Source: Caproicibacterium lactatifermentans
GTDB lineage: Bacteria; Bacillota; Clostridia; Oscillospirales; Acutalibacteraceae
DNA: 64,000 nucleotides
NCBI RefSeq assembly: GCF_013315815.1
Contig: NZ_CP046051.1
Location: 1,054,001-1,118,000, forward strand
Direction: 5' to 3'
This document shows positions 8,699 through 50,878 of this stretch, in pieces. Both the position numbers and the translations under genes were made by a program. A model generated the notes under the pieces. It did no database searches, was not told where the DNA came from, and saw only the letters and a program-made list of their open reading frames with translations. Each line of letters opens with the position of its first letter. Position 1 is the stretch's first letter.

Positions 8699-9433
8699 AT
8701 GAAAAAAACTACGCAAAAAGCTGCCTTATCGCCGGAATTATTACCCAGACATTTGGGCATTATTATGGATGGAAACGGCCGATGGGCTAAAAAGCGCGGC
8801 TTGCCGCGTTCAATAGGTCATAAAGTTGGTGCTGCCGTTTTTAAAAAGATTGCACGTTACTGCAGCAATATCGGGATTCCGTATTTAACAGTTTACGCTT
8901 TTTCAACGGAGAACTGGACTCGGCCTCCGGAAGAAGTCGGCGCTTTGATGGCTCTGTTTAAACAGTATTTACAGGTATCCCTTCGGGACTTCCGTGATGA
9001 TGATATCAAGGTGAACTTTATAGGAGATATGACCCGATTTGCACCTACCCTTCAGCGACTCATTTTTGAGACAGCTGATGTCTGCAAAGACAGAAAAGGA
9101 ATGGTCCTAAATATTGCCATGAATTATGGTGGACGTGCCGAGTTGGTGCGTGCTGCCCGTTCCATGGCTGCAAAGGCAGCTGCCGGGACATTACGGCCTG
9201 AAGAAATTACAGAGGACACCATTTCACAGGAACTGTATACGGCCGGTCAGCCGGACCCTGACTTAATTTTGCGACCCAGTGGTGAACATCGGCTATCCAA
9301 CTTCTTGCTATGGCAGTCTGCCTACACAGAATTTCTTTCCATGAATGTACTGTGGCCTGATTTTACGACGGACGACCTGGACAATGCACTGAACGAATAT
9401 GCACACCGCAGCCGCCGCTTCGGAGGTATCTAA
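8699..9433 (+). CDS. uppS: Isoprenyl transferase (undecaprenyl diphosphate synthase)
   Basis: 244 codons, cis-prenyltransferase family. It condenses isopentenyl diphosphate units onto farnesyl diphosphate to make the C55 lipid carrier for cell-wall synthesis. The catalytic Asp lies in LGIIMDGNGRWAKKRG; YLTVYAFSTENWTRP and the C-terminal RPSGEHRLSNFLLWQSAY block are in place. Most relatives read RTSGE(Q/H), so the Pro is a mild variant. cdsA starts 3 nt after the stop, indicating tight coupling. Confidence 0.96.
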   Translation: MKKTTQKAALSPELLPRHLGIIMDGNGRWAKKRGLPRSIGHKVGAAVFKKIARYCSNIGIPYLTVYAFSTENWTRPPEEVGALMALFKQYLQVSLRDFRDDDIKVNFIGDMTRFAPTLQRLIFETADVCKDRKGMVLNIAMNYGGRAELVRAARSMAAKAAAGTLRPEEITEDTISQELYTAGQPDPDLILRPSGEHRLSNFLLWQSAYTEFLSMNVLWPDFTTDDLDNALNEYAHRSRRFGGI

Positions 9434-34374: not shown

Positions 34375-34920
34375 TTATGCCGTATGCGTATGAATCGCTT
34401 TTTTCAGAAGCGGAAGTGTCAAAGCTGCTACAATGCCTCCAATAACCGCTGTAAGAAGCTGCGGATAGGAAAACATCATAGAAATCACATTTGCCTTTGT
34501 GCCCTTCAGTTTTAGGATATACGGAACCGCCAGCTTCACAATGCCAAAATATAATACAAGAAATTTTCCTACAGCAGAAAGGACAACAGCGGCGGCCCCT
34601 CGAAAAAACTTTCGAGAGGATTCGTTTTTTGCAATCAAGCTCCACAGCAAAACAAGTACGAGGTTGCCCGCCATAATAAAAGGCACTAACGCCCACAAAG
34701 GACCAATGCCGAAAAGCTTTGCCACAATAGGGGACACCACTGCTACTATACAGCCAGAACGAACTCCACAGAGCATAACGGAAACTACCAGTAAATAATT
34801 TACGATAGAACCCGTTAAGATGGTACTGCCAAGAGGTGCCGTTGCTGCCTGCAGGCCAACCAGCAATGCAATACAAACTGCTGTCTGTGTAATCCACAAA
34901 GTTTCTTTTTTCTGTGTCAT
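34375..34920 (-). CDS. ECF transporter S-component-like membrane protein
   Basis: 181 codons with about six hydrophobic segments. The start TQKKETLWITQTAVCIALL with GLQAATAPLGSTILTGSIVN, and LFGIGPLWALVPFIMAGNLV mid-protein, resemble small substrate-capture (S) subunits of energy-coupling-factor vitamin transporters. The ligand cannot be told from sequence. The ATG at 34920 has GGAG at 8-nt spacing; a longer overlapping frame to 34939 encodes an implausible Cys/Trp-rich protein and is a shadow. It has its own promoter with an iterated ACGT element, and lies just downstream of, but separated from, the radical SAM unit. Confidence 0.75.
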   Translation of the reverse strand: MTQKKETLWITQTAVCIALLVGLQAATAPLGSTILTGSIVNYLLVVSVMLCGVRSGCIVAVVSPIVAKLFGIGPLWALVPFIMAGNLVLVLLWSLIAKNESSRKFFRGAAAVVLSAVGKFLVLYFGIVKLAVPYILKLKGTKANVISMMFSYPQLLTAVIGGIVAALTLPLLKKAIHTHTA

Positions 34921-34946
34921 TATTTTCTCCAATCCTCATTCTGCTT

Positions 34947-35149: not shown

Positions 35150-35839
35150 CTAATCTCCAACTCCAAAGTCGGTGTTCTCATACAAGACTTCAACAGATGG
35201 GTCCTCATCCAGACAGGCATATTTTTTGCGGAACCATGATACTAATTGTTCATCACGTTTTACATCTGTACTATTGTTGGTATAGACATTGATGGTACCA
35301 AGTTGAAAGTATTTCTTCAGCATCTTGATATCATAATCAATCATTTCCCGTGTCTGCCCTTTGATGCCTACCATTAGGCATGGGGAATCAAAATATTGTG
35401 CAACTTCTTCGGCACTGCTGAAATCAGCATTTTTGTTTAGATATTGTTCTCGAAAATCGTTGTTAAATGTTTCCACACCGATTTTGAACGTAATAGGCAC
35501 ACCCATATAATCCCGCATTTTTTGAAGCATATTTCTGTACATCCAATGTGCTTCAAAAAACAATCGACGAATATGTTTTTTCTGAACAATACTGCGTATC
35601 TCGGCCAGTGTTTCTCTCGGAAGCTCAAAGCAGCTGCCGGAATTGATTACTTCTAAAACACCAAATTTCCCTGTCACATGGGATAGGACTTCATGGTTGA
35701 GTTTTAGCATTTCCATTTTATTTTTAGAATTATCCAGTATGTAATCACAAAAGCGACATTTTCCCCATGCACAGGGATGCGCTTTCAGCAAGACAATTTC
35801 ACGCATATTCTTATTTGTAATCTGATTATATCGTTCCAT
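35150..35839 (-). CDS. Small radical SAM protein, candidate queuosine/queuine salvage enzyme
   Basis: 229 codons. Three Cys at residues 23, 28 and 31 (HPCAWGKCRFCDY) make a CX4CX2C cluster, not the common CX3CX2C, followed by VINSGSCFELP, FFEAHWMYRNML and KIGVETFNNDFRE, which fit a partial TIM barrel. No SPASM or other accessory domain is seen. The gene overlaps the ECF S-component-like gene by 14 nt. Published work describes a noncanonical radical SAM queuosine lyase (QueL) beside a transporter in Clostridia; size, Cys spacing and context make that a reasonable hypothesis, supported by the preQ1-like aptamer upstream, but not proven. It may instead be an uncharacterised Elp3/MiaB-like enzyme. 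Confidence 0.7.
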   Translation of the reverse strand: MERYNQITNKNMREIVLLKAHPCAWGKCRFCDYILDNSKNKMEMLKLNHEVLSHVTGKFGVLEVINSGSCFELPRETLAEIRSIVQKKHIRRLFFEAHWMYRNMLQKMRDYMGVPITFKIGVETFNNDFREQYLNKNADFSSAEEVAQYFDSPCLMVGIKGQTREMIDYDIKMLKKYFQLGTINVYTNNSTDVKRDEQLVSWFRKKYACLDEDPSVEVLYENTDFGVGD

Positions 35840-36407
35840 TACTGATATTGCTTCTCCTTACTGCATCTTTAATCTGAACCGGTAAAACTTTCAGAACTGC
35901 GCAGGCAGCAACAATGCTTACAGCACAGTTGGCATAATCTGTCAGTGCTTGCACCAAGCAAATACTCAGTGTCAAATTCATGCCGACACATTTATTCAAA
36001 AGCTGTACAAGCAATGCAGAACCAGAAGACGTAATGCCGTGAAAGACACAAGCAGTAATAACAGAACCTACTACTGTTGCCGGAATAGAAACACAGGCTG
36101 CCTTCAGTATAATATCCCAACCATGAGGCCTGCATTTCTTGAAAATCATGCCCGAAAAGAAACCTGTGGCAAATTGTACCGGTATGTAATAAAGCGAATA
36201 AATGTCTGTTGTGATTCCACAAGTAAAGCTGCCCAACACGCCGGAGACAATCCCACAAGCAGGTCCGAATAAGGCAGCACACATGACGGTGCCGATACTG
36301 TCAAGGTAAATAGGAAGCCGCGTAACCAGAGCAATGTTGGCGCCAATCACGTTGACTACAGCCATTAACACAATGACACAGATTTTGAAGGGACCCAACT
36401 TTCTCAT
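35826..36407 (-). CDS. ECF transporter S-component-like membrane protein
   Basis: 193 codons, about six membrane segments. LPIYLDSIGTVMCAALFGPA with GIVSGVLGSFTCGITTD, and YIPVQFATGFFSGMIF, are the pattern of S-subunits that capture vitamins or nucleobases for a shared EcfAAT module, which is not in this window. It is the second ORF of a short operon: its ATG overlaps the stop of a 32-codon ORF (ATGA) and its end overlaps the radical SAM start. The upstream preQ1-I-like element suggests a deazapurine ligand such as preQ1, queuine or queuosine. Ligand assignment is inference. Confidence 0.75.
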   Translation of the reverse strand: MRKLGPFKICVIVLMAVVNVIGANIALVTRLPIYLDSIGTVMCAALFGPACGIVSGVLGSFTCGITTDIYSLYYIPVQFATGFFSGMIFKKCRPHGWDIILKAACVSIPATVVGSVITACVFHGITSSGSALLVQLLNKCVGMNLTLSICLVQALTDYANCAVSIVAACAVLKVLPVQIKDAVRRSNISNGTI

Positions 36408-36502
36408 CTGCTACCCTCCGAAAGGAAAATCCTTTGACGGACATAAGGACTTGCATGTCGGGGAACAAAACGGCAGACTGCGGCTACTTTTTTTGCATTC
36501 AT
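36404..36502 (-). CDS. 32-residue basic small ORF, possible leader peptide
   Basis: ATG at 36502 with AAAGGAGATTGGAGA just upstream, 33 codons including the stop, ending in TGA that overlaps the ATG of the ECF S-component-like gene. The product starts MNAKKVAAVCRFVP and ends RIFLSEGSR; it has seven Lys/Arg and one Cys and no membrane segment. The strong ribosome-binding site and the overlap suggest that it is translated and couples translation to the transporter gene. It may act as a leader peptide that transmits the aptamer state. No relative is known to me. Confidence 0.5.
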   Translation of the reverse strand: MNAKKVAAVCRFVPRHASPYVRQRIFLSEGSR

Positions 36503-36549
36503 TCTCCAATCTCCTTTTATTATATTTTTGCTTAAAAAGCAAAGAGATA

Positions 36550-36583
36550 CTTGGTTTTTTATCCTGGGAAGTTTGCGAACCAG
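36550..36583 (-). promoter_or_regulatory. preQ1-I-like riboswitch aptamer
   Basis: On the minus strand CTGG and CCAG form a 4-bp P1 around a 12-nt loop TTCGCAAACTTC, followed by the A-rich tail GATAAAAAACCAAG. Length, the loop TTC start, the C just before the P1 3' strand (ligand-pairing position) and the AUAAAAAACYAAG tail match class I preQ1 aptamers. The loop-tail pseudoknot pairs are not clearly canonical, which lowers confidence. A stable hairpin (arms CGATAG/CTATCG) lies just 5'. Downstream there is TTTGCTT/AAGCAAA but no T-run, so control is probably translational, at the AAAGGAG of the small ORF. Confidence 0.6.
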
Positions 36584-36625
36584 TCCGATAGAATTTTCCT
36601 ATCGATTAAATAAATGCACAATTAA

Positions 36626-36664: not shown

Positions 36665-36898
36665 AATTTATATATTGGAATCCATCTATATCCAACCGCC
36701 AGTATTACGGAAGTCTATGAATATGAAGCTGTAAAGAATCCAGAAAAGATTGTAGCCGGCCTAAAAGCGCTGAATGTTTGACCGGTCTGTGGCTATTCAC
36801 AAAGTTTCTTTGAACTTCGCCACGAAAATTACCAATTATTAAAAAGCAGCTGTTTTAAAATGACTGACAGTAAGCGTAAAAATACCGTCCAGATATGA
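36665..36898 (+). pseudogene. Decayed 3' gene fragment with in-frame TGA; rubrerythrin-like tail
   Basis: A single frame reads through 36665-36898 with no start codon at its beginning and one internal TGA (36779-36781). Before the stop it reads ITEVYEYEAVKNPEKIVAGL and KALNV; after it, PVCGYSQSFFELRHENYQLL. The second part resembles the CPxCGxxxxFFELxxENY zinc/iron knuckle at the end of rubrerythrin-type proteins, with the first Cys codon (TGT) changed to TGA. The fragment is followed 1 nt later by a good terminator, as for a true gene 3' end. A Sec-containing UxxC protein is an alternative, but the missing 5' part argues for a relic. Confidence 0.5.
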
Positions 36899-48307: not shown

Positions 48308-48360
48308 GTCATGCTCTTATAATAGAGAGGTTCGGCAAACGTATTATTGAACTGCTTGCC

Positions 48361-48525
48361 GATAGCGCTCCATCATAATTCTATGACGACAGTTGAGTCG
48401 ATGTTTCACACACTCAACCAGGAATTGCTGTTCCAAGCCATCCCTTCGGCGAATTTTCCTTTTACAGACTGTCACCGGCTTTGGCAGCCTCAAGCTCTGC
48501 TACTCTTCAAATCCGCGCCTCTATC
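48361..48525 (-). promoter_or_regulatory. Lysine riboswitch (L box)
   Basis: On the minus strand the aptamer opens with GATAGAGGCGCG, contains the loop-E-like AAGAGTA, a GCCGAAGG turn, a long P4/P5 region and closes with GGAGCGCTATC. GATAG at one end pairs with CTATC at the other. These core elements match the L-box consensus. With the following terminator it should switch off asd-dapA-dapB-ACT when lysine is plentiful. Confidence 0.95.
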
Positions 48526-48533
48526 TTCTGCCT

Positions 48534-48661: not shown

Positions 48662-49708
48662 ATGCAATTAGACCTTAATAATTTACAGACAAAAGACTTC
48701 TATTACGACCTGCCCAAAGAACTTATTGCGCAGATTCCGGTGGAGCCGCGTGATGTTTCCCGTCTATTGACTTTGAATAAAAAGACGGGGGAAATTGCCC
48801 ACTGCCATTTTCATGATATTACAGACTGGCTTCATCCAGGTGACTGCCTTGTTCTGAACGATTCCCGTGTACTTCCCGCGCGTATTTATGGTATTAAAGA
48901 AGACACTGGTGCCCGAGTGGAGTTTTTGCTGCTGACAAATCAAGGGAACGATACATGGGAAGTTCTGTGCAAGCCGGGGAAAAAGGCAAAAATTGGAACA
49001 CACTTTTCCTTTGGGGACGGTCTGCTGAAGGCCGAAGTCATTGACGTACACGATGACGGAAACCGTATTGTGAAATTTTCTTACGCCGGCAGCTTTTTCT
49101 CAATTTTGGATCAGATTGGGCAGATGCCTCTGCCGCCGTACATCAAAACAAAGCTAAAGGACCAGGAACGCTACCAGACTGTTTATTCCAAAGAAGTCGG
49201 TTCCGCCGCCGCACCAACCGCCGGTCTGCACTTTACAAAGGAACTGCTGGAAAAAGTAAAAGCAATGGGTGTAAAAGTGGAATTTGTCACCTTGCATGTC
49301 GGGCTGGGAACATTCCGTCCAGTAACTGCAGATAAAGTAGTGGACCATAAAATGCACTCTGAACATTATTATCTGCCGCAGTCCACTGCCGATGTTATCA
49401 ATGAAACGAAAAAATCCGGAAATCGTGTGATCGCTGTCGGTACCACCAGCTGCCGCACACTGGAAAGTGTCGCTGCAAAAGAAGGCTGTATAAAGGAAAG
49501 TGAAGGCTGGACCGACATTTTCATATATCCGGGATTCCAGTTTAAAGTTCTGGACGGACTCATTACAAACTTTCATCTTCCAGAAAGCACACTTATTATG
49601 TTGGTCAGCGCCTTTGCCGGCTATGACCATATTATGAATGCATATAAGGTTGCTGTGCAGGAAAAATACCGCTTTTTCTCTTTTGGAGATGCCATGTTCA
49701 TATATTAA
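48662..49708 (+). CDS. queA: S-adenosylmethionine:tRNA ribosyltransferase-isomerase
   Basis: 348 codons. It uses SAM as ribose donor to turn preQ1 in tRNA into epoxyqueuosine. [53 protein letters not shown] and [10 protein letters not shown] are family landmarks. AGGAGAAAGAT supplies the ribosome-binding site. It pairs with tgt, the previous step in the pathway, 39 nt downstream. Confidence 0.97.
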
Positions 49709-49747
49709 TTGCGCAAAATTTTTATTTTGTATAAAGGGTCTGAATCT

Positions 49748-50878
49748 ATGTATACACTTTTAAAACAAGAGGGGCTTGCACGCAGGGGCACTTTTCAAAC
49801 ACCACATGGTACTGTTCAAATGCCGGCTTTCATGAACGTTGCTACCGCGGGTGCTATTAAGGGCGCTGTTTCTGCGTTGGATTTAAAGGCTGTTCACTGT
49901 CAGGTTCAACTGTGTAACACCTATCATCTGCATCTGCGCCCGGGAGATGAACAAGTTTATCAGCTTGGCGGTCTGCAGCGTTTTACCCGCTGGGATGGCC
50001 CAATTTTAACTGACAGCGGCGGCTTTCAGGTTTTCTCGCTGGCCAAGCTTCGGAATATTACCGAAGAGGGCGTCACCTTTGCTTCCCATATTGATGGGCA
50101 TAAAATCTTTATGGGCCCAGAGGAAAGTATGCGTATTCAATCGCATCTTGGCAGCACAATCGCCATGGCTTTCGATGAATGTATGCAAAATCCTGCAGAA
50201 TATGATTATGCAAAACATTCGGTAGAGCGCACAACGCGCTGGCTTCACCGCTGCAAAGCAGAGCTTACCCAGCTTAATGCGCAGCCTGACACAATCAACC
50301 CGCAGCAGATGCTCTGGGGGATTAACCAGGGAAGTGTCTATGATGACCTGCGTGTGGAGCATATGAAACAAATTGCGGAACTTGATTTGCCTGGGTATGC
50401 GATTGGGGGGCTCGCCGTAGGGGAAAGTGCTGACATAATGTACCATATCCTTGAAGTGCTGAACCCTTATATGCCCAAGGATAAGCCGCGTTATCTGATG
50501 GGGGTTGGTACGCCCGCCAATATTTTAGAAGGTGTGCGCCGCGGCGTTGATATTTTTGACTGTGTAATGCCTACCCGCAACGCCCGCCATGGACACGCCT
50601 TTACTATGGAAGGTGTTCGCAATCTGATGAACGCGAAATATGCACTGGACCAAAATCCGTTGGAGGAAGGCTGTCAATGCCCAACTTGTCAGCACTTTAC
50701 CCGCGCCTACATTCATCACTTACTGAAAGCTAGAGAAATGCTTGGAATGCGGCTAATGGTTTTGCATAATCTTTACTTCTATAATACCTTCATGGAGAAA
50801 ATTCGTGCAGCGCTGGATGCCGGAAATTTCGATGAATTCTACCGCAGCCATATTGATTCCGTCAGCCGAAGAATATAA
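49748..50878 (+). CDS. tgt: tRNA-guanine transglycosylase
   Basis: 376 codons. It swaps G34 of GUN-anticodon tRNAs for preQ1. LTDSGGFQVFSL, MAFDECMQNP and GGLAVGESADIM are seen; the C-terminal zinc site is CQCPTCQHFTRAYIHHL. The Val in GGLAVGE is the residue typical of preQ1-using bacterial enzymes (eukaryotic queuine enzymes carry Gly), so a preQ1 supply is expected. The ATG at 49748 has AAAGGG upstream; in-frame codons back to 49709 are not family-like. Confidence 0.97.
   Translation: MYTLLKQEGLARRGTFQTPHGTVQMPAFMNVATAGAIKGAVSALDLKAVHCQVQLCNTYHLHLRPGDEQVYQLGGLQRFTRWDGPILTDSGGFQVFSLAKLRNITEEGVTFASHIDGHKIFMGPEESMRIQSHLGSTIAMAFDECMQNPAEYDYAKHSVERTTRWLHRCKAELTQLNAQPDTINPQQMLWGINQGSVYDDLRVEHMKQIAELDLPGYAIGGLAVGESADIMYHILEVLNPYMPKDKPRYLMGVGTPANILEGVRRGVDIFDCVMPTRNARHGHAFTMEGVRNLMNAKYALDQNPLEEGCQCPTCQHFTRAYIHHLLKAREMLGMRLMVLHNLYFYNTFMEKIRAALDAGNFDEFYRSHIDSVSRRI

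Follow-up and report, generated by a model that had tools for sequence, protein, structure and literature searches.

What a minus-strand gene unit headed by a preQ1-I-like aptamer salvages, and why a 32-codon ORF stands first in it, are the questions raised by this locus. The original prediction, made from the letters of the window (the whole 64,000-nt stretch of DNA analyzed here), had joined an aptamer-like element (36550-36583), the 32-codon ORF, an S-component-like gene, and a radical SAM gene with a CX4CX2C motif into one unit that would import and process queuosine or queuine. As compiled in Table 1, the ORFs were confirmed on the minus strand, where the order from 5' to 3' (35150-36589) is the aptamer, the 32-codon ORF, the gene for a 193-aa membrane protein, and the gene for a 229-aa radical SAM protein. 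A covariance-model search of the whole window placed the aptamer-like element inside a match to the preQ1-I family RF00522, which spans the full model (1-45, E 5.4e-05), scores above gathering, and is the only match to this family in the one-contig genome of 1,989,979 bases. The overlap of 14 nt between the S gene and the radical SAM gene (35826-35839) was as predicted, whereas that between the small ORF and the S gene (36404-36407), given as 3 nt, turned out to be 4 nt (ATGA). Scans for promoters and terminators around the operon yielded nothing beyond shuffle level. Upstream of the riboswitch, at 36690-36895 of the plus strand, short pieces resembling a broken coding region on the opposite strand were seen by eye.

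Table 1. Positions in the window of the operon features and of the downstream queuosine genes
Feature	Position	Strand	Basis
preQ1-I riboswitch aptamer	36545..36589	-	RF00522, 41.4 bits vs gathering score 39
Predicted anti-Shine-Dalgarno AUCUCU, adjoining the aptamer on its 3' side	36543..36548	-	MFE fold of the window
Small-ORF ribosome-binding site (GGAGAT)	36509..36514	-	Same sequence as at queK of relatives
32-codon ORF, putative queK remnant (first 6 codons MNAKKV and stop/start overlap)	36404..36502	-	DNA identity with queK starts
Putative ECF transporter S component, QrtT-like, 193 aa	35826..36407	-	PF12822 E 1.4e-4, below cut-off
queL, predicted queuine lyase (radical SAM), 229 aa	35150..35839	-	PDB 6p78, E 5.5e-80
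queA, downstream pathway, outside the operon	48662..49708	+	TIGR00113, 469.6 bits
tgt with GGLAVGE (Val), preQ1-type, outside the operon	49709..50878	+	TIGR00430, 481.6 bits

The radical SAM protein contains ...PCAWGKCRFCDY..., that is, the CX4CX2C motif, and had been guessed to be QueL. In good agreement with this guess, a phmmer search of solved structures matched it to PDB 6p78 ('Queuine lyase'), which covered residues 1-229 of 229 at 54% identity and has the motif in common with it (CAWGKCRFC in the window, CIWGKCSFC in 6p78). The score against the Pfam Radical_SAM profile was 24.5 bits, below the cut-off of 29.5. The top NCBIfam match, the archaeosine protein RaSEA (47.5 bits vs a cut-off of 212), was rejected as an assignment and taken as superfamily resemblance. 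A tree was built from 59 QueL-like proteins, with the window copies (L001 and L034) and the short entries L035-L039 and L046-L071 (some duplicating longer ones) excluded. It places the window protein in a clade of 36 members (100/98), to which 6p78 is sister (96/81). Judged from its sequence, the radical SAM protein is QueL, and the conversion of queuine to preQ1 is its predicted activity. The primary paper on QueL and QueK is reportedly that of Yuan et al., published in PNAS in 2019.

Gene context was read for 32 loci with a QueL relative and for further loci. Of the 32 clade members run against Rfam (window counted; the run excluded L072-L091), 28 reached the RF00522 gathering score, and the aptamer-core pattern was present in three of the four loci L072-L075. 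Because the riboswitch (at gathering score), the S gene, and queL recur jointly in 27 further loci, their association in an operon is not a matter of chance. The aptamer presumably binds preQ1 and regulates the operon.

The position of the small ORF is occupied by queK, the queuosine hydrolase gene, in 33 of the 36 loci of the QueL clade (window counted); queK is absent in two members, the window and L026, and L009 is unreadable in this respect because its DNA ends 46 bases upstream of queL. Around its ribosome-binding site and start codon, the small ORF shares exact DNA runs with queK of 34 nt in L005, 33 nt in L021, 32 nt in L004, 23-31 nt in 15 more relatives, and 14 nt in L002. Each of the 19 runs begins 15 or 16 nt upstream of the ATG, and the longest matches of 40 other window pieces, compared with the same loci as a control, were 11-17 nt. 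The encoded peptide opens with MNAKKV and thereafter diverges from QueK, whose N-termini among the relatives in the window's subgroup read MNAKKV or MNARKV in 9 of 19 cases, the rest being close variants (L017 was misread). The overlap at the other end is likewise that of queK: of 27 readable relatives, 22 have queK joined to the S gene by ATGA, the others having GTGA (three), TTGA (one), or TAATG (one). The QueK products of 32 relatives measure 327-390 aa (with masked or misread ends in some), and the sole one checked, from L016, matched PF01156 at 295.3 bits. Because the queK ribosome-binding site, the first six codons, and the ATGA overlap are all kept, the small ORF looks like a scar left by a large deletion in queK, and it is, by these sequence likenesses, best read as a remnant of that gene. 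We thus consider it highly probable that this operon, of the C. difficile type, serves queuine-to-preQ1 salvage and that a large internal deletion removed queK from it.

The 26-residue tail behind the first six codons was also compared with queK. Against queK DNA, no match rose above chance (21 vs a shuffle mean of 22.3). Against queK C-termini, there was a weak match to that of L008, whose score of 36, the best one, was reached by 0.55% of 2000 shuffles, and the mean score over 27 C-termini was ordinary (p 0.10); L022 and L028, with masked or misread ends, were omitted from this comparison and from the overlap count above. Against the whole of QueK, the score was again 36, and the top score among 100 shuffles was 37. 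An origin of the tail as an out-of-frame piece of queK was discarded, as frames 1 and 2 and the DNA gave no match above shuffles. At the DNA level, the support for the proposed deletion lies on the 5' side of queK only.

Such a tail, without a clear DNA match to queK, would also be expected if the small ORF had arisen independently of queK, as the gene of a leader peptide that governs the operon through translation coupling, and its good ribosome-binding site and a frame open into ATGA would suit such a role. This explanation is unlikely, however, in view of a ribosome-binding site and six initial codons that are those of queK, with the exact runs given above, and of the presence of queK at that very place in nearly the whole clade. 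Furthermore, tblastn matched the small ORF nowhere except in the window's own copies, by which a conserved leader peptide family was rejected as well. A remnant of queK is compatible with a present-day function, since the stub left by the deletion may now act as a coupling relay.

The assignment of the membrane protein as a QrtT-like S component is based on gene order. Its scores were under the cut-off for PF12822 (22.4 bits vs 30.7) as well as for the NCBIfam CD3073 family (64.3 bits vs 180); of the three operon-neighbour S genes checked against PF12822, those of L016 and L021 pass and that of L006 is below the cut-off. The window protein is 36-52% identical to the queL-adjacent S genes of relatives, and four further relatives in the family showed 38-42%. 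In a large protein database, the top row (99%; 5 members, 7 contigs) bears the window's own protein mark, the next match was 81% identical, and the remainder reached at most 54% among the matches listed. Downstream of queL, after a gap of 217 nt, lies a second ECF S-component gene (34375-34932, minus strand, 185 aa), which scored 28.3 bits against PF12822, slightly under the cut-off, and for which tblastn found no relative among the other loci.

Outside the operon, queA adjoins tgt, and the genome further encodes QueH (237 bits), CbiQ/EcfT (181.6 bits, plus two weaker matches, one of them below cut-off), and a separate QueT (138.7 bits), at whose gene no preQ1 riboswitch family was found at E 0.1 in 3474 bases (L116). 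The window also carries a lysine riboswitch (48355-48531, minus strand; RF00168, 93.6 bits), and the gene downstream of it resembles, by eye, that of aspartate-semialdehyde dehydrogenase. The Tgt protein has Val in its GGLAVGE motif, which we take to mark preQ1-type enzymes, and this feature, together with queA, had been seen as a tension with queuine salvage. The tension vanishes because QueL would make preQ1, the compound used by canonical Tgt. QueF and QueD were not found in the genome by searches whose controls were positive in 8 of 14 and 9 of 14 genomes, and the match to QueC (23.7 bits) was dismissed as LarE (TIGR00268, 242.4 bits vs a cut-off of 150; QueC TIGR00364, 26.6 vs 150.3). Judged on QueC, QueD, and QueF, the host appears to be without preQ1 synthesis of its own. 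As QueD and QueF were not found and the QueC match is LarE, the supply of preQ1 or queuine is presumably external, via one or both of the transporters.

PF01156, the family of queK, gave no match in the window's genome in two profile searches and was present in 12 of the 16 genomes searched. The four without it are the window's own, G425 (the genome of L026, completeness not given), G189, and G068, the last two having QueL beside QueT. The Qng1 family (PF10343) gave no match in the window's genome and likewise none in the control genomes. A nucleosidase unrelated to QueK could substitute for it. Since QueK is missing, nucleoside queuosine is an unlikely substrate, and queuine or preQ1, taken up as the base, is the probable one. 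The predicted import and processing of queuosine or queuine therefore holds as precursor salvage, consistent with QueL and the published operon, and the nucleoside part of it becomes improbable.

An import of preQ1 only, with QueL idle or acting on another substrate, would be in keeping with a riboswitch and a Tgt that are both of the preQ1 type, and one C. difficile QrtT, according to PMC11130926, transports preQ1 only. We regard this as very unlikely for the present unit, given the identity of QueL to the solved queuine lyase, the position of its clade as sister of 6p78, and the separate QueT that the genome has for preQ1-type substrates. Finally, an assembly error as the cause of the missing queK is conceivable in so far as the DNA of one assembly of the species was read, but it is extremely improbable for a one-contig genome, estimated to be 99.99% complete, with a clean, in-frame junction that ends at ATGA and with no other PF01156 gene found.

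With the putative queK remnant as the first gene of the operon, its leader suggests how the riboswitch might act. In the MFE fold of the window, AUCUCU pairs with GGAGAU. All 20 loci of the window's subgroup (window counted) carry AUCUC at a fixed position after the aptamer and have GGAGAU as ribosome-binding site of their first gene; because both are invariant there, no covariation test is possible. The MFE folds for L013 and L016 came out without the anti-SD/SD helix. It is consensus and fold prediction only that suggest SD/anti-SD control in the window. The 11 readable loci outside the subgroup have no such anti-SD, and every one of them has at least five consecutive Ts in its leader, as would suit termination control; one such run also occurs in the window leader, within a hairpin loop. 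In the same-genus locus L041 (G009), the 150 bases after the preQ1-I element (9260-9305, minus strand) contain a long hairpin with a T run, which makes this leader one of the transcription terminator type as opposed to the anti-SD type of the window.

Within the genus, 2 of 11 genomes have QueL (own counted; four of the 11 are less than 90% complete), as do 39 of 398 genomes of the family (own counted; one, G347, is weak), and a longer context was examined for 23 of the 38 other family genomes with QueL. The window QueL groups with mostly Lachnospiraceae and Anaerotignum sequences (21 rows, 95/89), with 81% identity to L002 and L003, and lies outside the clade that holds sequences from its own family and genus (L041, L072-L075; 100/90), to which its identity is 68-74%. 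This grouping and the subgroup-specific leader suggest that the operon was gained horizontally and that queK was lost afterwards. The second queK-less operon, that of L026, is situated in a different part of the tree. Its aptamer is sub-threshold (31.6 bits, E 1.6e-4), and its S gene, with no queK before it, begins about 160 bases after the aptamer. At 5221-5440 of L026, the weak preQ1-I aptamer is followed by a hairpin ending in a T run and then by the S gene.

In the proposed salvage route, the S component with a shared ECF motor would bring in queuine, perhaps also preQ1; QueL would cleave queuine to preQ1, Tgt would put preQ1 into tRNA, and QueA and QueH would complete queuosine. Once abundant, preQ1 would bind the aptamer, so that the stub's ribosome-binding site becomes paired with AUCUCU, and the resulting drop in stub translation would lower that of the transporter and QueL, which are coupled to it through ATGA. 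Without QueK, nucleoside queuosine would be unusable, leaving the cell reliant on an external free base. We see an even chance that the excision of queK turned a nucleoside-salvage operon into a queuine-only one, with the scar as a translated relay between the riboswitch and the transporter and lyase genes, and that such losses took place at least twice (window and L026). Repeated loss of queK would be expected wherever a supply of free base from neighbours or a host makes QueK dispensable. The locus would represent a natural queK-minus form of the bacterial queuine salvage operon that is best described, its deletion scar still legible, and it predicts that the organism uses the base rather than the nucleoside form of this micronutrient. 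Competition for queuine among bacteria and with a host could be tested with queK-plus and queK-minus strains. The small ORF after the riboswitch would be simply explained as well, and need not belong to a new family of regulatory peptides.

The C. difficile operon is laid out as preQ1-I riboswitch-queK-qrtT-queL in PMC11477304, and the same pathway is set out in PMC11130926 and PMC11570991. The window operon agrees with it in riboswitch class, ECF S gene, queL, gene order, and salvage dependence, and differs from it in having a 32-codon stub in place of queK, with no member of the queK family found elsewhere in the genome. The operon type is accordingly already known, and what appears to be new is the queK deletion with its small-ORF scar, of which no description was found in the literature searched, which covered few subscription papers.

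Loci that pair a queL-like gene with QPTR (PF02592) or QueT (PF06177) (L030, L031, L042-L045, L076, L077, L081, L083, L084, L086-L088, L090, L091) are like the window in that a transporter for Q precursors adjoins the queL-like gene and no queK is adjacent. They differ in their transporter families and in QueL, which is 41-58% identical to that of the window, and in the six of them run against Rfam (L030, L031, L042-L045) no RF00522 match reached the gathering score. The genomes of L030 and L031 carry PF01156 genes elsewhere. QueL without an adjacent queK is thus a repeated arrangement, seen with other transporters; among L076-L091, six loci (L078, L079, L080, L082, L085, L089) showed none of QueK, the S gene, QPTR, and QueT. 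The closest QueL relatives of the window, with 73-81% identity, belong to the riboswitch-queK-S-queL operons found mostly in Lachnospiraceae and Anaerotignum (L002-L008, L010-L018, L021, L032, L033). These operons share with the window the anti-SD/SD layout, the aptamer distance, the ribosome-binding site, and the start of the first gene; they differ from it in carrying queK in 19 of 19 cases and in their S genes, which are 42-52% identical to that of the window.
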